Of a stretch of 64,000 bases of DNA, positions 47,656-60,180 are shown in pieces. This stretch comes from Leisingera daeponensis DSM 23529 (GTDB lineage: Bacteria > Pseudomonadota > Alphaproteobacteria > Rhodobacterales > Rhodobacteraceae): positions 124,225-188,224 of the forward strand of contig NZ_KI421500.1 in NCBI RefSeq assembly GCF_000473145.1, given 5' to 3'. Positions within the stretch are counted from its first letter, which is position 1, and every line of letters begins with the position of its first letter. Made by a program: the position numbers and the translations under genes. Below the pieces are notes generated by a model, which ran no database searches, was not told the DNA's origin, and saw only the letters and a program-made list of their open reading frames with translations.

Positions 47656-48261
47656 TCAATCATCGGGGCGGGTGAGCGGGAACAGGTCGCGCACCACCGA
47701 ATAGTCGCGGTAGCCGAGGCGGGCGAGCGGCTGGAAGGTGGTGACGTCGAAGGTGCCGTCCTTCAGGCACTCGTCGCGCATGTGGACACCGGTCACCTCG
47801 CCGAACACGACCTTGTTGGCCTCGCCCGGCAGGGTCACGATTCGGGTAAGCCGGCATTCCAGCGCCGCGGGGGCTTCGGCGACACGGGCGCAGGCGATGG
47901 TTTCGCACTCCACGGCGGTCAGGCCGGCATGGGCGAACTCGTCCACATCCTTGGGCAGCGCGCCGGAGCTGGCGTTCATCGCATCGCGCAGCGCATAGGA
48001 TACCACATTGACGCAAAAGACGCCGGTGGCCTCGATGTTGGCGACGCTGTCCTTGGTGCCGTCCTGGTCGGGCTTGGCGCTGGTGGAGGCAAACATCACC
48101 TGCGGCGGCGTATAGGCCACTGCGTTGAAAAAGGAATAGGGCGCCAGGTTGTTCACCCCGTCGGCGGAGCGGGAGGAGATCCAGCCGATGGGGCGGGGTG
48201 TGACAATGGCGTTGAACGGATTGTGGGGCAGGCCGTGGCCGTCCTCGGGGCGGTAGAACAT
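47656..48261 (-). CDS. flavin reductase family protein
   Basis: A 201-aa split-barrel FMN-binding protein with the usual RPIGWISSRSADGVNNLAPYSFFN and DSVANIEATGVFCVNVV segments. It reduces FMN with NAD(P)H or serves a partner monooxygenase; no monooxygenase lies nearby. It is coupled to the acyltransferase gene at its 3' end. Confidence 0.88.
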   Translation of the reverse strand: MFYRPEDGHGLPHNPFNAIVTPRPIGWISSRSADGVNNLAPYSFFNAVAYTPPQVMFASTSAKPDQDGTKDSVANIEATGVFCVNVVSYALRDAMNASSGALPKDVDEFAHAGLTAVECETIACARVAEAPAALECRLTRIVTLPGEANKVVFGEVTGVHMRDECLKDGTFDVTTFQPLARLGYRDYSVVRDLFPLTRPDD

Positions 48262-48360
48262 TCTGGCTTCCTGTTCTGTGGCTTAGGTGTTTGCCCAAGC
48301 CTTACGCCCGTGTTAGGCCAAATGCCAGCCTGCAGAGGATATCGGCGGAGACAGGGCAGC

Positions 48361-48849
48361 GTGATCGAATTGCAAGCGGAACGGCCGGACGACCGGTGGG
48401 AGGTCGAGGCGCTTTACGACCTGTGCTTTGCGCCGGGCAGGGAGGCCCTGTCTTCCTACCGGCTGCGCGAAGGGGTGCCGCCGGTGGCGGGCCTCAGCCA
48501 GGTGGCGCGCGACAGCGACGGAATCCTGGCTGCGGCGATCCGGTTCTGGCCGGTGCTGATCGGGGACGCGCCGGCGCTCTTGCTGGGGCCGGTGGCGGTG
48601 CATCCGACGCGGCAGGGCGAGGGGCTGGGCGGGTCGCTGATTCGCGACAGCCTGGCCAAGGCGCAGGAGAGTGGCTGGGCGCGGGTGATGCTGGTGGGCG
48701 ATGCGCCCTATTACCGGCGCTTTGGCTTTACCCGCCTGGAGGGGGTGGAAATGCCGCCGCCCACCAACCCGGACCGGGTTCTGGGGCTTGCCTTGCAGGA
48801 TGGCGCCTGGGACGGCGTCCGCGGCCAGGTCACCCGCTGGCAGGGTTGA
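48361..48849 (+). CDS. GNAT family N-acetyltransferase
   Basis: A 162-aa acetyltransferase starting at GTG 48361, with GGAGACAGGG 6-15 bases upstream. The acetyl-CoA motif VAVHPTRQGEGLGGSLI and the PYYRRFGFTRL segment are typical of YhbS-type proteins. The reading frame is open further upstream but crosses the flavin reductase start on the other strand. Substrate unknown. Confidence 0.87.
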   Translation: MIELQAERPDDRWEVEALYDLCFAPGREALSSYRLREGVPPVAGLSQVARDSDGILAAAIRFWPVLIGDAPALLLGPVAVHPTRQGEGLGGSLIRDSLAKAQESGWARVMLVGDAPYYRRFGFTRLEGVEMPPPTNPDRVLGLALQDGAWDGVRGQVTRWQG

Positions 48850-48897
48850 AATCGGCCTCGGTTCCGCCGATCTGTTAGGCAGATACAGGAGGCGTAT

Positions 48898-49671
48898 GTG
48901 GCAGACATTCTGAGCAATGCGCGGGAGCTGACCCCGCAGCAGGTCGAGGCGGAGCTGGACGCGCTGGCCAAACGCTATCACGCGGCGGGCGGGTTCGGCG
49001 TGGAGCTGATGACCCGGCTGGGCGGCAGCGGCGAGAGCCTGCTGGAACGCTTGCCGGCGCCGGTGCGGGCCGGGCTGACCGGTGCCGCGGAAACGGCGCT
49101 GCGGCTGGCCATGAAAGGCGCAACCACGTCGCGCCGCCTGGTGCCCGACCAGAAGCCCGGCGTCGACCGGGTGGTCAGCGCCGCGATGGGCGCGGCGGGC
49201 GGCGCAGCCGGTCTTCCCGGCGCGCTGGTGGAGCTGCCTGCCACCACCGCCTTTTTGCTGCGCACCATTCAAAGCGCCGCAGCCGCCGAAGGCTTTGACC
49301 CGGAGGCCGAGAGCGTCACCTTCGATTGCATCCAGGTGTTCGCTGCGGCGGGCCCGCTGGCCAGCGATGACGGGGCCGATCTTGGCTTCGTCTCGCTGCG
49401 GCTGGGGCTGCCCGGCGGGGTGCATAAGCTGATTGCCCAGGTGGCGCCCAAGCTGGGGGCGGTGCTGGGGCAGAAGCTGGCGGCGCAGGCGGTGCCGCTT
49501 GCCGGCGCGGTTGCAGGGGCTGCGGTGAACTACGTCTTTTCCGGCTATTACCGGGAGATGGCGCATGTGCATTTCGGCCTGCGGCGGCTGGCGGTGGAGG
49601 CCGGAACGCCGCAGGAGGAGCTGGCGGCACGGCTGCGGCAGCGGCTGCAGCGCCCCGGTGCGGCGGTTTAG
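48898..49671 (+). CDS. EcsC family protein
   Basis: A 257-aa protein with the EcsC-like core: GVDRVVSAAMGAAGGAAGLPGALVELPATTAFLLRTIQ-type hydrophobic segments with regular Gly/Ala, and VAGAAVNYVFSGYYREMAHVHFGLRRL at the end. EcsC proteins are poorly understood and tied to ABC exporters or secretion. Start GTG at 48898 with AGGAGG upstream. No ABC partner lies adjacent. Confidence 0.82.
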   Translation: MADILSNARELTPQQVEAELDALAKRYHAAGGFGVELMTRLGGSGESLLERLPAPVRAGLTGAAETALRLAMKGATTSRRLVPDQKPGVDRVVSAAMGAAGGAAGLPGALVELPATTAFLLRTIQSAAAAEGFDPEAESVTFDCIQVFAAAGPLASDDGADLGFVSLRLGLPGGVHKLIAQVAPKLGAVLGQKLAAQAVPLAGAVAGAAVNYVFSGYYREMAHVHFGLRRLAVEAGTPQEELAARLRQRLQRPGAAV

Positions 49672-49738
49672 GCGCACTGCGCTCTTGCACTTGCCGGAAA
49701 GGGAGATTTAATCGCCTCTTCCTGCTATGAGGGAAAAC

Positions 49739-50242
49739 ATGATTCAATACAGCCTCAAATGCGCAGAGGGCCACAGCTTCGACAGCTGGTTCCAGTCTGC
49801 AGCGGCGTTTGACAAACTGGCGGCGGCCGGTCTGGTGTCCTGTGCGGTTTGCGGCGGCACCGGGGTGAAGAAGGCGGTCATGGCCCCGCGGGTGCGTCCG
49901 GGGCGCAAGGCAGTGTCCGGTGTCGGCGAGCCCGAACCGCAGGCCGTCGCTGCGCCTTCAGCTTCGGTGCCGGCACCTGTGCCGGCGCAGGCGGGGCCGG
50001 GCCTGCTGAGCCGTCCTTCAGGCGAGGTGGAGAAGGCCATTGCCGAGCTGCGCCGGAAGGTTGAAGAGAACTCCGATTATGTGGGCGACCGCTTTGTGCA
50101 GGAGGCGCGGGCGATGCATCTGGGCGAGGCGCCGGAGCGGGCCATTCATGGCGAGGCCAAACTTGAAGACGCGCGGGAACTGATCGAGGAAGGCGTGCCG
50201 GTGCTGCCGCTGCCGTTCCGTCCCGGGCGCAAAGCGAATTGA
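49739..50242 (+). CDS. DUF1178 family protein
   Basis: A 167-aa protein typical of alphaproteobacteria. It begins MIQYSLKCAEGHSFDSWF, with two Cys pairs (C-x3-GH and SCAVCGG) that probably bind zinc, then KKAVMAPRV. An Ala/Pro-rich linker and a conserved C-terminal half (IAELRRKVEENSDYVGDRF, ARAMHLGEAPERAIHGEA) follow. GAGGGAAAAC precedes the ATG. Function unknown. Confidence 0.88.
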   Translation: MIQYSLKCAEGHSFDSWFQSAAAFDKLAAAGLVSCAVCGGTGVKKAVMAPRVRPGRKAVSGVGEPEPQAVAAPSASVPAPVPAQAGPGLLSRPSGEVEKAIAELRRKVEENSDYVGDRFVQEARAMHLGEAPERAIHGEAKLEDARELIEEGVPVLPLPFRPGRKAN

Positions 50243-50255
50243 GAGGCAGGGCAGT

Positions 50256-50897
50256 ATGCACGCAGTCGTAACGGGGACCAGCCGCGGCATCGGCAAGGAG
50301 CTGGTGAAGCAGCTGCGAGAGGCGGGCCACGAGGTGACCGGCACCTCGCGGGATCATTCCTCGGGGGTGAAGCTGGATGTCTCCGACCCCGGCCAGCAGG
50401 CGCGTTTTGCTGCCCAGATCCGGAACCGGCCGGTGGACCTCTTGGTCTGCAATGCCGGGGTTTATATCGACAAGGCGATGGGGCTTGCGGATTACTCGGC
50501 CGAGGTCTGGGCCAAGACGCTGGCGGCCAATGTGACGGGCGTGTTCCTGACCGTGCAGGCGATGCTGCCCAACCTGCGGCTGTCGGATGCGCCCAAGATT
50601 GCCATCCTGTCGTCGCAGATGGCCAGCCAGTCACGGGCGCCGGGCGGCAGCTATGCTTATCGCGCGTCGAAGGCCGCGGCGCTGAACCTCGGCCGCAACC
50701 TGGCCACCGATCTGAAGGCCGAAGGGATTGCCGTCGGCATCTACCACCCGGGCTGGGTACGCACCGACATGGGCGGCGATGAGGGCGATATCACGGTGGC
50801 AGAGTCGGTCGCCGGGCTGATCAACGAGTTCGACGTGCTGTCGCTGGAGACCACCGGCTGCTTCCACACCTGGGACGGCCGCATCCAACCGTACTGA
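50256..50897 (+). CDS. SDR family NAD(P)-dependent oxidoreductase
   Basis: A 213-aa short-chain dehydrogenase. The cofactor loop TGTSRGIG is at residues 6-13, then VCNAGVY, the catalytic Ser region ILSSQMAS and Y-x3-K in YRASKAAAL. Close to the C-factor/csgA-like subgroup. It begins 13 bases after the DUF1178 gene and is likely in one unit with it. Substrate unknown. Confidence 0.9.
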   Translation: MHAVVTGTSRGIGKELVKQLREAGHEVTGTSRDHSSGVKLDVSDPGQQARFAAQIRNRPVDLLVCNAGVYIDKAMGLADYSAEVWAKTLAANVTGVFLTVQAMLPNLRLSDAPKIAILSSQMASQSRAPGGSYAYRASKAAALNLGRNLATDLKAEGIAVGIYHPGWVRTDMGGDEGDITVAESVAGLINEFDVLSLETTGCFHTWDGRIQPY

Positions 50898-50929
50898 TAC
50901 ACCTCCCCGCCCTGCGCCCTAAACGCAGT

Positions 50930-51112
50930 GGCGGGGCTCCCGCGCCCGCAGGCGTCCTCAGCGGGGCTGAGGACGCCTTGGCGGCCTTGGGCCCGGCGCC
51001 GCGCCTGCGCGCGCCGCTGCACCGCACGGTAGTGCGGTGCCGTTCCCAACGGGCTGAGGGCCTGGCAAGGCCCGGCGCCGGGCGGGAGCAGCCCCGTGCG
51101 CTGCAAGCGGAT
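50930..51112. repeat. GC-rich structured repeat between convergent genes (member C)
   Basis: GGGGCTCCCGC (50934) and GGGCGGGAGC (51080-51089) are inverse ends. The 25-base core at 50980-51004 (GGCGGCCTTGGGCCCGGC, then GCCGCGC) matches member B with one change. Internal hairpins: GGCGTCCTCAGC/GCTGAGGACGCC (50951-50976) and GCACCGCAC/GTGCGGTGC (51019-51040). Confidence 0.75.
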
Positions 51113-51140
51113 AGACCTCTTTCCGGCGCGGCACTGGCCG

Positions 51141-51173
51141 CAAAAAAAAGCCGGCGCGACGGGCGCGCCGGCT
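51141..51173 (-). terminator. terminator of the trypsin-like gene
   Basis: AGCCGGCGCG and CGCGCCGGCT make a perfect 10-bp stem with a 5-base loop, followed on the minus strand by TTTTTTTT. It lies 42 bases after the stop of the leftward gene. It is distinct from the repeat next to it. Confidence 0.95.
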
Positions 51174-51214
51174 GATGGTGGTTGGCCCTTGGCGCCCGTA
51201 TCCGGGCCGGGCGC

Positions 51215-53002
51215 TTACTCCCAGCAGCTGACCAGGACGGTCATGCCGGAGGCGAGCCGGGAGATTGCCGCGCTGGGCAGGCTGCCTGCGGCGGGGGACT
51301 TGCTGGCTGCGGTTACGCCGGCCGCGCTCAGCGCGCTGCGGAGGGCTTCGGCGTTGACCGCAAAGCTCACGCCCTCGGGCAGCTGCTTGCCATCGGGCTG
51401 CCGCGGCAGCAGCATGCCATGCACCGCGCCGGTGCTGTCAATCACCGGGCCGCCGGCATCGCCCGGCTGGGCCGCCAGGTCGAGGCGCGCCACTGCGGTG
51501 TTGCCATCGAGGCTTTTGACATCAGCGATCTTGCCCCAGGTGAGGCTCGGCGCGCCCAGCACGCCCTCGTAGGAGAACCCGGAGACCGCAATCTCGGACT
51601 GAAGGCGGGGGGAGGAGGTGCTGAGCTCGGCCACGGCGGCGGGGGCCAGCGGCTCTGCCGGGCGCAGGATGGCGATGCCGCCGGCCGTGTCATTGGCGGC
51701 CACCTCGGCCTGATAGCCGTGATCCAGGGTGATCCGGGTGCAGCCTGCCACCACGTCAGATGTGGTCAGCACGCTGCCGTTGCCGTCCACAAAGAAGCCC
51801 GAGCGCGAGAGCTTCGGCTTGCGGATCTCCAGGCCGGAAACCAGGTCGATGTCCTGCACCGCGTCGCTGCCCGCGGCCGGGTCCAGCACGCCTTCAAGCC
51901 GGGTGAAGCTGGCCTGCATCGCGGCCAGAACACGGGTGCGGCGGTCCTCATCACCGGCGGGCCAGATCAGGGTGAACCCCTTCACTTCGCCGTTTTCAAG
52001 GCTTGCCTGGGTGAAGGAGACGATCCGGTCGTTGCGGCCTTCGATGGTGAAGCTGTCGCTGCCGCGCTGGCGCGGGCCCTCAAGCGGCACGATTTCCAGC
52101 GTCTGCAGAATGTCGTAGAGGCCGAACAGGGTGCGCTTGTCGCCGGGCTGGCTGATCAGCAGCACCTGGGCGCCCGCATCCCCCTTGCTGGTGTAATGGG
52201 CAAAGGGTGATTCATAGCGGTCGAAACTCACCTCAGCTGCGGGCATCTGCACGGCGATGCCGGCCTTGGTGTCCTCCACCCGTGCCATGCCGGCAGAGAT
52301 CAGCGGCGCGTTGTATTCATCCATCAGCACCTGGCGCTGGGCGGTGGTCAGCACTCCGGTCGGCTCAAAGCCGCGGGCCGCCTGCCAGTCGCTCATCGAG
52401 GCGCGGGTGCCGCGGCCGAAAGCGCCGTCGATGCCGGAATCGTAGAAGCCAGCGGCTTTCAGCGCGACTTGCAGATCCATCCGCTGTTCGCGGCTGAGCG
52501 CGCTTTCGCTGCGGCGCGCCTGGGCCGGAGTCTCGTCGGGCAGGGCCGATTGCGGGGCCGTCTGCTGCTGCGGTTCAGGCTCCTGCGCGGCAGGCTCCTG
52601 CGCTGCAGGCTCTGCCGGGGCAGGGGCCGGGGCTGGTTCTGCCGGCGGGGCGGCATCTGCTGCCACCGGGTAGAACTGGCTGCCCAGGTTGCGGCGGAAG
52701 GCGATGAAGCTGTCGCGCGGAATCTGACCCTCGGCGCGGTACACCTGCAGCACCCGTTCTGCGTCCTCGCGGGCATAGGGGCCCAGCACCACGCCGTACC
52801 AGCCGCCGCCAAGCGCGTAGCCCGACACGTCCGGCAGGCGCGCGGCATAGGTGCGGGCCTCGTTTTCGGCCTCGCGCAGGGAGGGGCGGGCAGCAATCTG
52901 GATCCAGACCGCATCCCGGCTGCTTTGCGCCGACACAGGCGCAGAGAACGCAATGGCCAGCGCGATCAGGGGCAGCGCCAGAGCGGCAAACAGTTTATTC
53001 AT
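51215..53002 (-). CDS. trypsin-like domain protein lacking catalytic residues, with SPOR-like and peptidoglycan-binding regions
   Basis: A 595-aa secreted protein: signal peptide to about A25, a SPOR-like repeat (about 28-105, VWIQIAARPSLREAENEART and WYGVVLGPYAREDAERVL), a Pro/Ala/Glu/Gln linker, a peptidoglycan-binding type 1 domain (about 175-230, LQVALKAAGFYDSGIDGAFGRGT), a middle region, and a trypsin-fold domain from about 400. In the trypsin domain the usual TNxHVV reads TTSDVV (D416 in place of His; codon 51755-51757), and GDSGGP reads GDAGGP (A516 in place of Ser; codon 51455-51457). It is therefore likely a wall-bound scaffold or peptide-binding pseudoprotease. It stands alone between two terminator-like elements. 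Confidence 0.85.
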   Translation of the reverse strand: MNKLFAALALPLIALAIAFSAPVSAQSSRDAVWIQIAARPSLREAENEARTYAARLPDVSGYALGGGWYGVVLGPYAREDAERVLQVYRAEGQIPRDSFIAFRRNLGSQFYPVAADAAPPAEPAPAPAPAEPAAQEPAAQEPEPQQQTAPQSALPDETPAQARRSESALSREQRMDLQVALKAAGFYDSGIDGAFGRGTRASMSDWQAARGFEPTGVLTTAQRQVLMDEYNAPLISAGMARVEDTKAGIAVQMPAAEVSFDRYESPFAHYTSKGDAGAQVLLISQPGDKRTLFGLYDILQTLEIVPLEGPRQRGSDSFTIEGRNDRIVSFTQASLENGEVKGFTLIWPAGDEDRRTRVLAAMQASFTRLEGVLDPAAGSDAVQDIDLVSGLEIRKPKLSRSGFFVDGNGSVLTTSDVVAGCTRITLDHGYQAEVAANDTAGGIAILRPAEPLAPAAVAELSTSSPRLQSEIAVSGFSYEGVLGAPSLTWGKIADVKSLDGNTAVARLDLAAQPGDAGGPVIDSTGAVHGMLLPRQPDGKQLPEGVSFAVNAEALRSALSAAGVTAASKSPAAGSLPSAAISRLASGMTVLVSCWE

Positions 53003-53185
53003 TGTCAGGGCCTCGTATCCCGGAAGTACTCTTATTCTTTGCCGCGGAGGTTAAGCATTTTGCAGGAGCAAAGGGAACTCCTCATCGCAGGGGGAATTCC
53101 CGGCGCGTTGCCGCATTCCCGCACTTTTGTTGCCGATGTGCTGCGGGCTGCGGGCCGCAGCGCCGCTGCAAGCGCCCGCAGGGCG

Positions 53186-53214
53186 TTGACCCTGCCAAAA
53201 GCCTTGCATAGGAA
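53186..53214 (+). promoter_or_regulatory. candidate promoter of the gly operon
   Basis: TTGACC, 17 bases, then TAGGAA lies about 45 bases upstream of the glyQ start. The -35 is good and the -10 is weak. The rest of the 256-base divergent gap is GC-rich and shows no other signal. Confidence 0.35.
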
Positions 53215-53258
53215 GATCCCCGCAATTGCTGCCTTAGCTGCCCCCAAAGGGATAAGAC

Positions 53259-54188
53259 ATGACCCAGACCAACGGCGCGCCGCGCTCCTTCCAAGAGATT
53301 ATCCTGAGGCTTCAGAACTACTGGGCCGCCAAGGGCTGCGCGGTGATGCAGCCCTATGACATGGAAGTCGGCGCCGGCACCTTCCACCCGGCGACCACGC
53401 TGCGCTCGCTGGGATCCAAGGCCTGGGCGGCGGCTTATGTGCAGCCCTCGCGCCGTCCGACCGACGGGCGCTATGGCGAGAACCCGAACCGGCTGCAGCA
53501 CTATTACCAGTACCAGGTGCTGATCAAGCCGAGCCCGCCGGATCTGCAGGAGCTGTACCTGGGCTCGCTGGAGGCGATCGGTATCGACATGGCGCTGCAT
53601 GACATCCGCTTTGTCGAGGATGACTGGGAAAGCCCGACGCTGGGCGCCTGGGGTCTGGGCTGGGAGGTCTGGTGCGACGGCATGGAAGTCAGCCAGTTCA
53701 CCTATTTCCAGCAGGTTGGCGGCCATGACTGCCATCCGGTCTCCGGCGAGCTGACCTATGGCCTGGAGCGTCTGGCGATGTATGTGCTGGGCGTCGATCA
53801 CGTGATGGACATGCCGTTCAACGATCCGGACGCGATGATCCCGCTGACCTACGGCGATGTGTTCAAGCAGACCGAGGAAGAATACGCCCGCTGGAACTTT
53901 GACGTGGCCAGCACCGATGTGCTGCTGCGCCATTTCGAGGAGGCCGAGGCCGAATGCGCGGCCATCCTCGCGCAGGAGCATATGGACCCCAAGACCGGCA
54001 AGCGCATCATCATGGCGCACCCGGCCTATGACCAGTGCATCAAGGCCAGCCACATCTTCAACCTGCTGGACGCGCGCGGGGTGATTTCGGTCACTGAACG
54101 CCAGGCCTACATCGGCCGCGTCCGGGCGCTGGCCAAGCAATGCGCCGATGCATTCGTGCTGACCGAGGCTGGAGGGCATGCGGCTTGA
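53259..54188 (+). CDS. glyQ: glycine--tRNA ligase alpha subunit
   Basis: A 309-aa class II synthetase subunit that forms an alpha2beta2 enzyme with GlyS. Conserved text: [57 protein letters not shown] and [18 protein letters not shown]. It is separated from glyS by two genes and a mini-ORF, an unusual but coupled layout. Its stop overlaps a TTG start of the next frame. Confidence 0.97.
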
Positions 54189-54724
54189 CCAAGCTGTTTA
54201 TGCAGTTTCACAGCTTCGAGAAACGTCTCGAAAGCAGTGTGAACTGGTCGACAGGAAATTGGAGACCGCTTGTGACCAGACTCAATGGGTTTGGCAGCTT
54301 TGTCTATGACAAGGGGCAGGACATTTGGGACTATCATCAGGACCCCATGAAGGCGGATGGGGTTGTTTCCTTGGAAGTTTTTTTCTGTGATGAGGAAAAC
54401 CTGAAGCAGAACTCACCGCGCTCTCACCCGAAAGGTAAGCACTTCTGGCTGACGCCGCTTGGCGAAGATGGGTTCGAGTTTACCGTCAATTTGTGCACCT
54501 CTCGTGTGCCATGGTTCTTGGAAATGCTTAAAGACTGCGAAGCGGAGGGCAAGTTGCTGACGTCCGCCGCAGTCACGGAAGACGAGACAGCCGAGTTGCA
54601 AAGATCCGGGCGCTCCGTGTCTGAGGGGCGACTTTTGTTGCGTCCGTATCAGAAACGAATTCTGACCGGCGTGGAAACCGGCGCGCTGAATGAAGGTTCA
54701 ATTGGAGGAGGTGCCGATGGGTAA
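54185..54724 (+). CDS. orphan gene inserted between glyQ and glyS, unknown function
   Basis: A 179-aa protein from TTG at 54185, overlapping the glyQ stop (TTGA), with GGAGGG 8 bases upstream; an ATG at 54200 ([11 protein letters not shown]) is the alternative. The sequence is polar and aromatic, without signal peptide or helices. Local GC is low (45% over 54361-54420 by hand count, against about two thirds in glyQ), and it uses codons rare in its neighbours (TTT, TTG, GAA). Its end overlaps the next start (ATGGGTAA). No family recognised. Both overlaps show it is translated with the operon. Confidence 0.72.
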
Positions 54725-55250
54725 GTTTCTGGCCCTGATCCTGATCATCTCCGGCCTCGCGGCCGGGGGGGCGATGTATTACCTGCAGGTCTATGGCTTC
54801 TATGATGAGGTGGCGCTTCAGCCGGGCCGCGATGTGGTGCTGGTGCCGCTGGATGGCGGCGAGGCGCAGCCGATTGCCTATTCGGATTTCGAGGCGATTG
54901 ACGCAGGCAGCTCCCCGATCCGCTACCGCGCCTGTTTCACCACAAAGGTGTCGCCGGATGAGCTGGCGCAGGTCTTCACCCTGTCCGACAAGGTCGAGCC
55001 GCGCAATGCGCCGGACTGGTTCGAGTGTTTCGACGCCGCTGCCATTGGCGCCAAGCTGGCGGATGGCTCGGCCAAGTCCTTCCTGTCGGTCAAGAACATC
55101 TCCTATGGTGTCGACCGCATTGTTGCCGTCACCGATGAGGGCCGCGGCTATGTTTGGCATGAACTGAACGACTGCGGCCAGAAAGCCTATGACGGCACCG
55201 TGGTGGGCGAAGAATGCCCGCCCCGGCCTGAGGCGGGCGGAAGCGAATGA
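54717..55250 (+). CDS. DUF6446 family membrane-anchored protein
   Basis: A 177-aa protein with one N-terminal helix (FLALILIISGLAAGGAMYYL) and a soluble domain with four Cys (RACFTT, WFECFD, NDCGQK, EECPP). This architecture is common beside glyS in Rhodobacterales, where it is annotated as DUF6446. The ATG at 54717 has a perfect GGAGGAGG 6-7 bases upstream, so it is preferred over 54690. It overlaps the previous stop and its own stop overlaps the next mini-ORF. Confidence 0.82.
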   Translation: MGKFLALILIISGLAAGGAMYYLQVYGFYDEVALQPGRDVVLVPLDGGEAQPIAYSDFEAIDAGSSPIRYRACFTTKVSPDELAQVFTLSDKVEPRNAPDWFECFDAAAIGAKLADGSAKSFLSVKNISYGVDRIVAVTDEGRGYVWHELNDCGQKAYDGTVVGEECPPRPEAGGSE

Positions 55251-55327
55251 TGAGCGCTCGCCGCAAGCCCGCCCTATTCAATTATACTGCTGCGCCCGCC
55301 CGCGCGGCCACGCCCGAGGATATCTGA
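55250..55327 (+). CDS. 25-codon ORF bridging to glyS
   Basis: ATG at 55250 overlaps the stop of the DUF6446 gene (TGATG) and its own TGA overlaps the glyS ATG (TGATG at 55325-55329). The peptide begins MSARRKPALFNYTAAPA, is basic and has no Gly codon, so a glycine-attenuation leader is unlikely. No separate ribosome site is visible. It may be a coupling device that carries ribosomes to glyS, or a small protein. Confidence 0.5.
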   Translation: MSARRKPALFNYTAAPARAATPEDI

Positions 55328-57426
55328 TGCCCGATCTGCTGATTGAACTGTTTTCCGAGGAAATCCCGGCCCGCATGCAGGCGCGTGCCGCCGAGGACCT
55401 AAAGAAGCGCGTGACCGATGGTCTGGTCGAGGCGGGTCTCACTTATGCCGGGGCCGCCGCGCTGTCGACGCCGCGCCGCCTGACCTTGGCCGTCGATGGC
55501 CTGCTGGCCGAAAGCCCCACCATCCGCGAAGAGCGTAAAGGGCCGAAAGTGGGCGCGCCTGACAAGGCGATCGAGGGTTTCCTGCGCGGCGCAGGCCTGA
55601 GCCGCGAGCAGCTGGAAGAGCGCGAGACCCCCAAGGGCGCGGTCTATTTCGCGATGATCGAAAAGCCGGGCCGCCCGGCGGCAGAGATCATTGCCGAAGT
55701 GCTGGAAGACACGATCCGCAACTTCCCCTGGCCCAAATCCATGCGCTGGGGCGCAGGCTCTTTGCGCTGGGTTCGTCCGCTGCATTCGATTCTGTGCATC
55801 CTGTCGGATGAAAACGGCACCTCGGTGGTGGACCTGGATATCGACGGCATCAAATCGGGCAACACCACCCGCGGCCACCGCTTCATGGCGCCGGATGCCT
55901 TCGCCGTCACCGGCTTTGACGACTACGCGGCCAAGCTGAAGCGCGCCTTTGTGGTGCTGGACGCCCGCGAGCGGGCCGAGGCGATCTGGCAGGAGGCTAC
56001 CAATCAGGCCTTTGCCAGCGGGCTGGATGTGGTTGAGGACAAGGGCCTGCTGGCCGAGGTCTCCGGTCTGGTCGAATGGCCGGTTGTGCTGATGGGCGCG
56101 ATTGACGCCGAATTCCTGGAACTGCCGCCGGAGGTGCTGCAGACCTCGATGAAGGAGCACCAGAAGTTCTTCTCGGTGAAGAACCCCAAGACGGGCCGGA
56201 TCGAGAAATTCATCACCGTCGCCAACCGCGAGACCGCGGACAATGGCGCCACCATCCTGGCGGGCAACCAGAAGGTGCTGTCGGCGCGTCTGGCGGATGC
56301 CAAGTTCTTCTGGGAGAACGACCTGCGCACGGCGAAGTCCGAAGCGGGCATGAGCGCCTGGGTGGAGAACCTCTCCAACGTGACCTTCCACAACAGGCTG
56401 GGCACCCAGGCCGCGCGCATCGACCGGATCGCCGCGCTGGCGCGCGAGATCGCTCCGGTGGTCGGCGCTGATGCGGATCTGGCCGAACAGGCGGCACGTG
56501 TGGCCAAGGCCGATCTCAGCTCCGAGATGGTCTATGAGTTCCCGGAGCTTCAGGGCCTGATGGGCCGCTACTACGCCGAGGCCGCGGGCCTGCCGCAGGC
56601 AGTGGCAAACGCCTGCGAGCAGCATTACTCGCCGCTGGGGCCGGGCGATGATGTGCCGTCGGAGCCGGTGTCGGTCGCCGTGGCGCTGGCCGACAAGCTG
56701 GACACGCTGACCGGCTTCTGGGCGATTGATGAAAAGCCCACCGGGTCGAAAGACCCCTACGCCCTGCGCCGCGCTGCGCTGGGGGTGATCCGGTTGGTGC
56801 TGGAAAACGATGTGCGGATGCCTCTCAATATGGTCTTCGGCAAAGCCGCTGAGATTACTGGCAAGCGTGAAGGTGCGTCAGGTGAAGCATTTGCTGACGT
56901 GAATGATTTGCGTGGCTTCTTCCACGACCGCCTCAAGGTCTTCCTGCGCGATCAGGGCATCCGCCATGATGTGATCGACGCCTGCATCGCCATGGACGGC
57001 AGCGACGACCTCACTCTGCTGGTGAAACGCGCCCGCGCCCTGGAGGATTTCCTGAAGACCGAGGATGGCGAGAACCTGCTGCAGGGCTTCAAGCGCGCCA
57101 ACAACATCCTCACCCAGGCCGAGGAAAAAGACGGCGTGGAATACTCCTTTGGCGCCGACCGCAAGTTTGCCGAGGACCCGGCGGAAAAAGCGCTGTTCGA
57201 CGCGCTGGAGGCAGGCGGGGCGGCGATCTCTCCGGCCATCGAGGCCGAAGATTTCGCGGCTGCCATGCGGGGCATGGCCGCCCTGCGCGCGCCGGTCGAT
57301 GCGTTCTTTGAGGCGGTGCAGGTGAACGCGGAGAACGAGGTGCTGCGCCGCAACCGCCTCAACCTCCTCAGCCAGATCCGCCAGGTCTGCGGCCAGGTGG
57401 CCGACCTCACCAAGGTGGAAGGCTGA
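55327..57426 (+). CDS. glyS: glycine--tRNA ligase beta subunit
   Basis: A 699-aa beta subunit, typical in length. Conserved text: LLIELFSEEIPARMQ at the start, KSMRWGAGSLRWVRPLHSI, LQTSMKEHQKFFSV and the anticodon-binding-like C-terminal domain. It binds the tRNA and completes the alpha2beta2 enzyme with GlyQ. An open frame reaches back to 55189, but the family start is at 55327. A strong terminator follows. Confidence 0.97.
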   Translation: MPDLLIELFSEEIPARMQARAAEDLKKRVTDGLVEAGLTYAGAAALSTPRRLTLAVDGLLAESPTIREERKGPKVGAPDKAIEGFLRGAGLSREQLEERETPKGAVYFAMIEKPGRPAAEIIAEVLEDTIRNFPWPKSMRWGAGSLRWVRPLHSILCILSDENGTSVVDLDIDGIKSGNTTRGHRFMAPDAFAVTGFDDYAAKLKRAFVVLDARERAEAIWQEATNQAFASGLDVVEDKGLLAEVSGLVEWPVVLMGAIDAEFLELPPEVLQTSMKEHQKFFSVKNPKTGRIEKFITVANRETADNGATILAGNQKVLSARLADAKFFWENDLRTAKSEAGMSAWVENLSNVTFHNRLGTQAARIDRIAALAREIAPVVGADADLAEQAARVAKADLSSEMVYEFPELQGLMGRYYAEAAGLPQAVANACEQHYSPLGPGDDVPSEPVSVAVALADKLDTLTGFWAIDEKPTGSKDPYALRRAALGVIRLVLENDVRMPLNMVFGKAAEITGKREGASGEAFADVNDLRGFFHDRLKVFLRDQGIRHDVIDACIAMDGSDDLTLLVKRARALEDFLKTEDGENLLQGFKRANNILTQAEEKDGVEYSFGADRKFAEDPAEKALFDALEAGGAAISPAIEAEDFAAAMRGMAALRAPVDAFFEAVQVNAENEVLRRNRLNLLSQIRQVCGQVADLTKVEG

Positions 57427-57440
57427 GAGAGCCGCCGGCT

Positions 57441-57464
57441 CTTTCATCTTTCCAAGAAATACTC
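57441..57464. repeat. dispersed motif downstream of glyS (inverted copy)
   Basis: CTTTCATCTTTCCAAGAAAT then ACTC, reading in reverse as GAGTATTTCTTGGAAAGATGAAAG. The same motif occurs at 44462-44483 and, in shorter form, at 3045-3061. It lies 14 bases after the glyS stop and just before the terminator. Confidence 0.75.
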
Positions 57465-57475
57465 GCCCCGCAGGG

Positions 57476-57507
57476 ACCGGCCTTTCCGCAAGGGAAGGCC
57501 GGTTTTT
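57476..57507 (+). terminator. terminator of the glyQ-glyS operon
   Basis: ACCGGCCTTTCC, loop GCAA, GGGAAGGCCGGT with one G-U pair and a T5 run at 57503-57507. It lies 49 bases after glyS. Confidence 0.93.
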
Positions 57508-57603
57508 CGTTTCCAGAGCGCTTTCGGCCTCCGCAGGCCGCTACAAGGCTCTTGCGCCATCGCCGCATCCCCTTATGGTGACTGGCAAAGGAGACGTGCT
57601 GCA

Positions 57604-60180
57604 GTGCAGAAAGATTTCGTACAGACCCCGCCGGCCTGCCTCATCAGCGCCACCGCGCCGATTGCCACCGCCACCCATGGCGGGCGGGCAAAATGCCTGC
57701 AGCGGCTGGTGCGGCTGGACCTGCCGGTGCCGCGCACGGTGGCGCTGTCCTTTGATGCGGTGCATGCCATCGCCGAAGGGCAGATGCCCGATCTGTCGGC
57801 AGTGCTGGGAGAGTTCGACCCGGAAGCGCTGCTGTGCGTGCGCCCCTCGTCCGAGGACCCGGACTGGGGCGGGCCCGGAGCAATCCTGAACATCGGCATG
57901 AACGATGCGCGCTATGTCGACCTGTGCGACACCTTGGGCCGGGAAGCGGCGGCGGCGCTGTATCTGCGGTTTGTGCAGTCCTACGCAGTGCATGTGGCGC
58001 GGCTGGACCCGGATGTGTTCGACGATGTCGAGGACGGCGGCCCGGATGCGCTGAGCGAGATCCTGCACGCCTATGAGGCGGAAACCGACGAGCCGTTCCC
58101 GCAGGACCCGGGCGAGCAACTGGCGGAAGTTCTGCGCTCGATGGCGCGGGCATGGGAGGGCACCTCGGCGCGGCTGTTGCGTCAGGCCAAGGGCGCGCCG
58201 GCCGATGCGGGCCTCGGGCTGGTGGTGCAGGAGATGATCCCCGGCGTGGGGCAGGGCGAGTGCGGCTCCGGTGTGCTGCAGCTGGTGAATTCCACCACCG
58301 GCCAGCCGCAACTGACCGGGCGCTACCTGAGCCAGAGCCAGGGCCGCGATGCGCTGGGGGCCGGGGCCGGGGCGCTGTATCTGGCCAAGGACGCCCGCGG
58401 GCTGTCGCTGGAGGAACTGGCGCCGGAAGCCTTTGCGGATCTCAAGGCCCACGCCGCGCTGATGCGCTGCAAGCTGCGCGAGGAGATGCAGCTGGAATTC
58501 GTCGTCGACAACGGCCGGGTGCATATCCTGGACGGGGTGCGGGTTGTGCGTTCAGCGCGGGCGGCGGTGCAGATTGCGGTGGCACTGGCGGAGGACGGCA
58601 TCATCCCGCAGCAAGAGGCGCTGATGCGGGTCGATGCGCATATCCTGAACGAGCTATTGCACCGCCAGGTGGCGCCCTATGCCAAGCGCGACGTGATCGG
58701 GCGCGGCATCGCCGCCAGCCCGGGCGCGGCCACCGGCAAGCTGGTGTTCACGGCCGCCGGGGCGCAGGCCAGTGCGGCACGCGGCGAGCCTTGCATCCTG
58801 GTGCGGCGGGAAACCTCGCCGGAGGATGTGCGCGGCATGCACGCCGCTGCCGGAGTGCTGACGGAGAAGGGCGGCATGACCAGCCATGCCGCGGTGATCG
58901 GCCGCGGGCTGGGGCTGCCCTGTATCGTCGGCGCGTCCAACATCAAGTTCCACACCAAGCTCAAGATGCTGCAGGCGGCGGATGGCCGGATGTTCAAGGC
59001 CGGCGACGTCATCACCATCGACGGCAGCAGCGGCCAGGTTCTGGCGGGCCAGCCGGAGATGCTGGAGGCGGCCGAGGACGGTGCGCTGCTGACCCTGCTG
59101 GCTTGGGCGGACGATGCCCGCGACATCGGAATCCGCGCCAACGCGGATACGCCGGAAGATGCTGAAACTGCGCGGAAATTCAACGCTCAAGGCATCGGTC
59201 TCTGCCGTACAGAGCACATGTTTTTCGATCCCGGCCGCCTGACGGTGATGCGGGAAATGATCTTTGCCGAAACCCCCTCTGGCCGGGCTGCGGTGCTGGA
59301 GCGCTTGCTGCCGATGCAGCGAAATGATTTCCGCGAGCTGTTCCGGATCATGGAGGGGATGCCGGTCTGCATCCGTCTTTTCGACCCGCCGCTGCATGAA
59401 TTCCTGCCCGCCACCAAATCCGGCCAGCGCGAGCTGTCGGAGGCTCTGGGCATTCCGGTCAGCGATGTGACGCGCCGGGTTGAGGAGATGGGCGAGTACA
59501 ACCCGATGCTGGGCCTGCGCGGCGTGCGGCTGGGCGTCACCGTGCCGGAAATCTACGACATGCAGGCGCGGGCGATCTTTGAGGCCACTTTGGAGGCCTC
59601 CAAATGGGGCGAGCCGGTGGTGCCGGAGATCATGATTCCGCTGGTCTCGGCCAAGCGCGAGGTGGAGCTGGTCAAAACCCGTATCGACGCGGTGGCCGCC
59701 GCGGTGAAGGCGGAGCGCGGCGAGGATTTCACCTACCGCCTGGGGGTGATGGTGGAAACGCCGCGGGCGGCGCTGCGCGCGGGGGAGATTTCACCGCACA
59801 CGGCGTTCCTGAGCTTTGGCACCAACGACCTGACCCAGATGACCTATGGCCTGTCGCGCGACGATGCGGGGCGGTTCATGTCGGTTTACGTGAACCAGGG
59901 CGTTTTCCCCGAAGATCCCTTCCACGTGCTGGACACCGACGGCGTGGGAGAGCTGCTGAAACTCGGCGTGCAGCGCGGCCGGGCGGAGAATCCGGACATC
60001 ACTCTGTCGATCTGCGGGGAGCATGGCGGCAACCCCGAATCGATTGCGTTTTGCCGGGATGCGGGCTTTGATTACGTTTCGTGCTCGCCGTATCGCGTGC
60101 CGGTTGCGCGTTTGGCCGCAGCCCAATTGGCAATTTCCAGCCAAACCGGCCAAGTCGCGCCAACCTACACAAAATATTAA
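57604..60180 (+). CDS. ppdK: PEP-utilising enzyme of the pyruvate phosphate dikinase family
   Basis: An 858-aa multidomain enzyme from a GTG start with GGAG upstream. Domains in order: an N-terminal ATP-grasp-like domain, the phosphohistidine swivel domain with the catalytic His in EKGGMTSHAAVIGRG (about residues 430-445), and the PEP/pyruvate TIM barrel with the active Cys in SICGEHGGN near the end. The barrel also has RTEHMFF and MLGLRGVRLG. The N-terminal nucleotide half is divergent: GGRAK replaces the usual GGKG(A/C), and the LQTR motif reads LDGVR. It is therefore a PPDK relative whose phosphoryl donor should be tested. Confidence 0.8.
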   Translation: MQKDFVQTPPACLISATAPIATATHGGRAKCLQRLVRLDLPVPRTVALSFDAVHAIAEGQMPDLSAVLGEFDPEALLCVRPSSEDPDWGGPGAILNIGMNDARYVDLCDTLGREAAAALYLRFVQSYAVHVARLDPDVFDDVEDGGPDALSEILHAYEAETDEPFPQDPGEQLAEVLRSMARAWEGTSARLLRQAKGAPADAGLGLVVQEMIPGVGQGECGSGVLQLVNSTTGQPQLTGRYLSQSQGRDALGAGAGALYLAKDARGLSLEELAPEAFADLKAHAALMRCKLREEMQLEFVVDNGRVHILDGVRVVRSARAAVQIAVALAEDGIIPQQEALMRVDAHILNELLHRQVAPYAKRDVIGRGIAASPGAATGKLVFTAAGAQASAARGEPCILVRRETSPEDVRGMHAAAGVLTEKGGMTSHAAVIGRGLGLPCIVGASNIKFHTKLKMLQAADGRMFKAGDVITIDGSSGQVLAGQPEMLEAAEDGALLTLLAWADDARDIGIRANADTPEDAETARKFNAQGIGLCRTEHMFFDPGRLTVMREMIFAETPSGRAAVLERLLPMQRNDFRELFRIMEGMPVCIRLFDPPLHEFLPATKSGQRELSEALGIPVSDVTRRVEEMGEYNPMLGLRGVRLGVTVPEIYDMQARAIFEATLEASKWGEPVVPEIMIPLVSAKREVELVKTRIDAVAAAVKAERGEDFTYRLGVMVETPRAALRAGEISPHTAFLSFGTNDLTQMTYGLSRDDAGRFMSVYVNQGVFPEDPFHVLDTDGVGELLKLGVQRGRAENPDITLSICGEHGGNPESIAFCRDAGFDYVSCSPYRVPVARLAAAQLAISSQTGQVAPTYTKY

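Follow-up and report, generated by a model that had tools for sequence, protein, structure and literature searches.

The 64,000-nucleotide window that we analyzed from Leisingera daeponensis DSM 23529 (contig NZ_KI421500.1, positions 124,225 to 188,224) encodes, on its minus strand, a 595-residue protein named "serine protease" or "trypsin-like peptidase domain-containing protein" in databases, in which a trypsin domain is fused to parts associated with the bacterial cell wall. A first-pass annotation made from the sequence alone had delimited the same chain, leaving its strand unsaid, and had described it as a catalytically dead protein with a signal peptide, a SPOR-like repeat, and a peptidoglycan (PG)-binding type 1 domain. 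Most of this inventory held up. The signal sequence, as read by eye, consists of a helix at residues 2-18 followed by ...APVSAQ/SS, and PG_binding_1 matches residues 171-226 with 41.3 bits (Pfam cut-off 23) and is found in 65/65 homologues at E 0.01. SPOR is present as a single domain rather than a repeat. Its match (residues 31-87) is marginal on sequence, with 23.4 bits against a Pfam cut-off of 21, and the structural model gives the region the order E32-39 H42-53 E59-65 E68-76 H78-90 E99-102, where E is strand and H is helix. Two features had been missed, namely a third catalytic loss, described below, and a domain at residues 239-372 that matched the PsbP/Mog1-like fold when modelled alone. 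The C-terminal part is recognized by Trypsin_2 over residues 401-530, with 55.5 bits against a Pfam cut-off of 27.6.

All three residues of the catalytic triad are absent from this trypsin domain. The motifs TTSDVV (from residue 413), GGIAIL (from 441), and PGDAGGP (from 513) put D416, G442, and A516 at the positions that His, Asp, and Ser occupy in active relatives; the first and the last of these replacements are those that the annotation had pointed out. In the protein and 120 listed of its 4492 homologues, position 416 is D in 119, E in one, and A in one, position 442 is G in all 121, and position 516 is A in 108 and V in 13, with zero rows showing His416, Asp442, or Ser516, so that neither chance nor a sequencing error can account for the replacements. 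We then compared 153 homologue rows with a trypsin domain from the same order, Rhodobacterales. These comprise 33 rows from a second set and 120 from a 128-row locus set, from which L124-L129 (no trypsin domain) and L130 and L139 (active sister type) were dropped, and they contain near-duplicates, the effective number being ~104. No triad residue is left in 147 of them, one in six, and more than one in none; at position 516 we counted A in 129, V in 14, S in four, T in two, and R, L, F, and I once each. The triad is complete in 145/145 related active-type rows (L177, a broken frame, was excluded). In a domain tree of 86 rows, selected by hand from more, 33 dead rows make up one side of a branch supported at 100/100, with HtrA-type rows from the protein's own genome on the opposite side. 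This makes a single loss of the triad the simplest history, and the loss is ancestral, having occurred most simply once in an ancestor of the sampled Rhodobacterales rows.

The dead domain appears to be under purifying selection. By simple Nei-Gojobori counts on 12 Leisingera-group genes, the median pairwise ratio of nonsynonymous to synonymous substitution rates (dN/dS) of the domain is 0.139, which is close to that of the other domains; the SPOR and PG-binding parts lie slightly below it. Decay, a recent mutation, or a sequencing error is ruled out by the homologues, the tree, and dN/dS, and its probability is negligible given a loss common to all 153 rows, confined to one side of one branch, and accompanied by a low dN/dS. 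The proposal that this is a pseudoprotease and not a decaying gene, with His and Ser losses common to the Rhodobacterales homologues and no intact triad in close relatives, is therefore well supported.

The old active site carries a new signature. Four positions shift jointly between the 145 active and the 153 dead rows (G400 to R, H416 to D/E, Q506 to R, and N515 to D), the active-state combination being present in 143/145 active rows and R-acid-R-D in 117/153 dead rows. Weighted frequencies in the dead rows reach 0.99 for R506, 0.93 for D515, and 0.84 for R400, and residue 416 is acidic in 130/153. Every dead row has Cys421 and Cys593, as does every active row apart from one that is incomplete at 593; this suggests an ancestral disulfide. 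We considered whether the domain might still be an enzyme using other residues, since the fold persists, as does most of the G-D-x-G-G-P loop. This is very improbable, and alternative catalytic residues were rejected: position 516 is mostly A or V with no conserved Ser, Thr, or Cys, no Lys is >80% conserved in the domain, and both cysteines are common to the active Ser-type rows.

The active-type sister proteins (P0122-P0241, for example S1 family peptidases from Paracoccus) belong to the same trypsin subfamily and have both cysteines; their N-terminal domain and the PG-binding domain of the present protein are homologous (hhalign probability 97.5, E 6.7e-12). The His-Asp-Ser triad is kept in 120/120 sister proteins listed of 4113 and in 25/25 complete loci from other Alphaproteobacteria, L177 being the broken frame among 26. 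This active type (L139, P0122-P0241) is sporadic in the order and rare, with one member used as query matching 8/121 genomes at E 1e-40. One sister protein (L139) searched against the protein's own genome revealed no active sister gene: its best match was the present protein itself (P0001), and its other three were loci that likewise have strong Trypsin_2 matches. The genome has seven Trypsin_2 loci besides the one described here.

The gene is widespread and has a conserved neighbour. Of 390 genomes of the order, its own included, 370 match at E 1e-10: 344 at E 3.2e-54 or better, among them G063 with a 388-residue frame that has no trypsin domain; 25, all of genus g7, between E 1.5e-15 and 6e-24; and a single genome of active type (G369, E 2.7e-13). 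In the wider class, a family profile at E 1e-12 matched 39/289 genomes, with up to four candidates scored per genome. Four of these belong to the same family. Among the matches listed for the remaining 35, none extends over the whole profile; almost all cover just the trypsin domain and a few the PG-binding stretch (in one, G666, the match covers 170-330). The divergent plus-strand neighbour, which we take to be glyQ, the gene for the glycyl-tRNA synthetase alpha chain, lies upstream on the opposite strand in 77/80 named loci, at ~0.9 and 1.5 kb in L068 and L081; in the remaining three, just 271-399 bases of upstream sequence are present. It also flanks the gene in 48/51 further loci, the exceptions being two active sisters (L130 and L139) and one family member whose flank has no glyQ (L209), that is, 48/49 without the sisters. 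By this synteny, the gene has long stood next to glyQ and has been passed on vertically. Two loci stand apart for other reasons. G359 (L120, L137) has its homologue in two pieces, an N-terminal and a C-terminal match that overlap and lie in different frames, which could be a fission or a frameshift. The assembly of L043, labelled Nocardioides marinus DP1N28-1, has a Leisingera-like locus with 77% identity and the same synteny, and it is probably mislabelled.

Table 1. Features of the pseudoprotease locus, in window positions (pLDDT, predicted local distance difference test score of the structural model)
Feature	Positions	Strand	Basis or remark
Whole gene, SPOR / PG_binding_1 / PsbP-Mog1-like / pseudo-trypsin protein, 595 residues	51215..53002	-	
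Signal sequence, residues 1-26	52925..53002	-	by eye; helix 2-18, pLDDT <50 at 20-28
SPOR domain, residues 29-105, approximate limits	52688..52918	-	PF05036 31-87; strand/helix order
Linker, residues 106-166	52505..52687	-	pLDDT <50 at 115-146
PG_binding_1 domain, residues 167-229, approximate limits	52316..52504	-	PF01471 171-226
PsbP/Mog1-like domain, residues 239-372	51887..52288	-	no Pfam match
Pseudo-trypsin domain, residues 395-595	51218..51820	-	D416/G442/A516; Cys421 and Cys593
D416 codon (catalytic His position)	51755..51757	-	
G442 codon (catalytic Asp position)	51677..51679	-	
A516 codon (catalytic Ser position)	51455..51457	-	
Candidate intrinsic terminator just 3' of gene	51149..51173	-	10-pair stem, 9 GC, then T7
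glyQ, divergent neighbour, separate from the protein	53259..54188	+	conserved at relatives' loci

The features of the locus are listed in Table 1. A terminator scan gave one candidate against a shuffle mean of 1.2, so that only its position speaks for it. No sigma-70-like promoter was found within 50850-53400, no Rfam match within 48000-58000, and no tRNA in the window. An open reading frame at 54140-54724, flanked by glyQ and the next conserved gene, is matched by tblastn at E 1e-10 in only 1/80 related loci (L041); it may have been inserted into the glyQ-glyS region.

Taken together, sequences and structural models depict an exported-type, wall-domain-bearing, old, and selected protein without a triad, a pseudoprotease by descent in which the catalytic residues were lost, the fold was kept, and the loss is shared. 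Its trypsin domain comes from a two-cysteine subfamily whose other members are active-type alphaproteobacterial serine proteases; the domain lost its triad, gained a conserved charged set at the old active site, and stayed under purifying selection. Our preferred interpretation, to which we assign a probability of about 0.6, is that the protein is a secreted (periplasmic), PG-anchored, non-catalytic S1 pseudoprotease acting as an adaptor, for which we infer a partner, a ligand, and a septal location. SPOR and PG_binding_1 would attach it to the wall, with SPOR most likely targeting denuded glycan at the division site, and the PsbP/Mog1-like and dead protease domains would serve there as surfaces on which a periplasmic partner docks and is held uncut. 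The dead domain, kept by selection, probably as a binding platform, would be an add-on to the core made up of the wall-binding and PsbP-like parts. Of the first-pass term "wall-bound pseudoprotease", the second word is well supported; the first is inferred from the domain content (SPOR, PG_binding_1, and the signal sequence). The annotation was right in kind, and its idea that the protein may read denuded glycans or bind peptides is a conjecture about function.

Several points weigh against the adaptor interpretation. We found no binding, localization, or knockout evidence. The dN/dS counts come without a formal test, the PsbP/Mog1 fold likeness shows no function by itself, and the charged set (R400, D/E416, R506, and D515) may have a structural role. 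SPOR is detected at E 0.01 in just 38/65 homologues. One catalytic residue persists in L099, L206, L194, and L218 and, depending on the alignment, in L122 and L123, where the residue is Leu in one alignment and Ser in another. In the active sisters we detected no SPOR and no PsbP-like part (hhalign 0.1% for the latter), so that common ancestry of the whole chain with them is unsupported. The gene has no match at E 1e-10 in 20/390 genomes; when 13 of these were searched again at E 1e-5, seven gave nothing and six gave short stretches over the PG-binding region only. Finally, the trypsin domain is gone, and the PG-binding and PsbP-like parts are kept, in 5/5 sampled genomes of g7 (L125-L129, from 25), presumably Paracoccus, as a sister protein from g7 matches Paracoccus sanguinis at 97%, and the 388-residue homologue of G063 (L124) stops before the trypsin domain.

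These losses can be placed in a history. By their adjacency to glyQ, the trypsin-less g7 genes are orthologues by position; four of the five also have a second N-terminal SPOR-like stretch, matching at E 7.5e-6 or better, whereas in L127 the match reaches only 0.73. In a glyQ tree of 85 rows, eight of them outgroup and again selected by hand, g7 is nested beside L116 and L200, which are full-length carriers (95/85), and this rules out that g7 never had the domain. G063 groups with L122 and L123 (100/99), both of which have a degenerate trypsin region, and whole-gene absences are scattered. It follows that g7 and G063, at least, have lost the trypsin domain. In L125 and L126 matches extend through in-frame stops (to residues 429 and 449), a hint of possible trypsin remnants, but when L125-L129 were searched by tblastn with the dead domain and with four divergent tails, the best match was at E 3.9. 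No hidden replacement was seen at 21 gene-less loci, where the frames beside glyQ seemed unrelated, a weak negative because only the longest frame was judged, by eye, and several were plainly shadow frames; in L221-L223 (genus g9) the longest frame divergent from glyQ encodes, by eye, a glycine/aspartate-rich repeat protein with an RTX look. The trypsin domain thus appears dispensable in some lineages and the gene not indispensable everywhere, and since g7 dropped the dead domain and kept the core, the domain looks like an accessory module.

The same losses lend something to a simpler view, in which the dead domain binds no ligand of its own and serves the SPOR, PG-binding, and PsbP-like core only as a folded spacer or as a cap that stabilizes it. 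Much of the conservation in common with the active relatives is glycine framework and cysteines, and the wall-binding parts have the slightly lower dN/dS. However, the residues that the dead family has fixed and the active one has not include charges at the old active site (R506, D515, R400, and the acid at 416), more than would be expected of a spacer, and we regard this view as unlikely. A bolder elaboration of the adaptor interpretation, to which we give little credence, is a wall-state sensor: SPOR on denuded glycan and the recharged site on a stem peptide or the tail of a wall enzyme would read both amidase products at the division site, with the PsbP-like domain recruiting or restraining a hydrolase. 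Were it true, most of a bacterial order would employ a former protease in its wall biology as a peptide receptor that no longer cuts.

Whatever its partner, the protease names mislead, as the gene is present in most sampled genomes of a marine-rich order with the triad in 0/153 rows. It offers a clean case of the passage from protease to non-catalytic protein, complete with active-type relatives, a replacement signature, and a lineage from which the domain was afterwards dropped, and the purpose of a dead protease becomes testable by genetics. Among the titles and abstract starts listed from the open-licence literature, none concerned this protein, which does not prove absence.

Known systems resemble this protein in part. 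The precedent is MamO, a magnetosome HtrA-like pseudoprotease with a trypsin fold, which Alphaproteobacteria keep for a non-catalytic task and which promotes MamE-dependent proteolysis (PMC4794232). MamO has H116, D149, and T225 at the triad positions, a metal site formed by two histidines, and a TauE domain, whereas the present protein has lost all three catalytic residues and its remaining parts are SPOR, PG_binding_1, and the PsbP-like domain; a MamO-like metal site is ruled out, since no histidine is >80% conserved in the dead domain. The MamO precedent, together with the seven other Trypsin_2 loci in the genome, raises the idea that the protein modulates another periplasmic protease of the HtrA/DegP type. 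We consider this rather doubtful, because the conserved neighbour is glyQ and no protease gene and because that metal site is missing. MarP (Rv3671c), a periplasmic trypsin-fold protein acting on a PG hydrolase (PMC6628586), is proteolytically active and has membrane helices at its N-terminus, unlike the triad-free protein here, which scores 36.4 bits against a cut-off of 250 for the MarP family model NF033740 (NCBIfam). By the tests made, the protein belongs to neither the MamO nor the MarP type. With active S1/S1C (HtrA-type) proteases it shares the trypsin fold and not the triad, and its five Pfam matches up to E 1 include no PDZ family. CspC and CspA of Clostridioides are likewise bacterial pseudoproteases, tied to the control of germination, a process that removes cortex PG, but they are subtilisin-like, a different fold, and act in spore germination. 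The SPOR cell-division proteins FtsN, DamX, DedD, and RlpA are not known to have a trypsin or PsbP-like part. These are exported, as the present protein is likely to be, and SPOR domains recognize denuded glycan (PMC6895207). Dshi_0924 of Dinoroseobacter shibae, a SPOR protein abundant in outer-membrane vesicles (PMC7901474), may be an orthologue, and similarly named proteins are listed for Ruegeria pomeroyi (PMC5839243). S1 pseudoproteases such as MamO and SPOR proteins are already known; what is new is their meeting in a widespread fusion of SPOR, PG-binding, PsbP-like, and dead trypsin domains.
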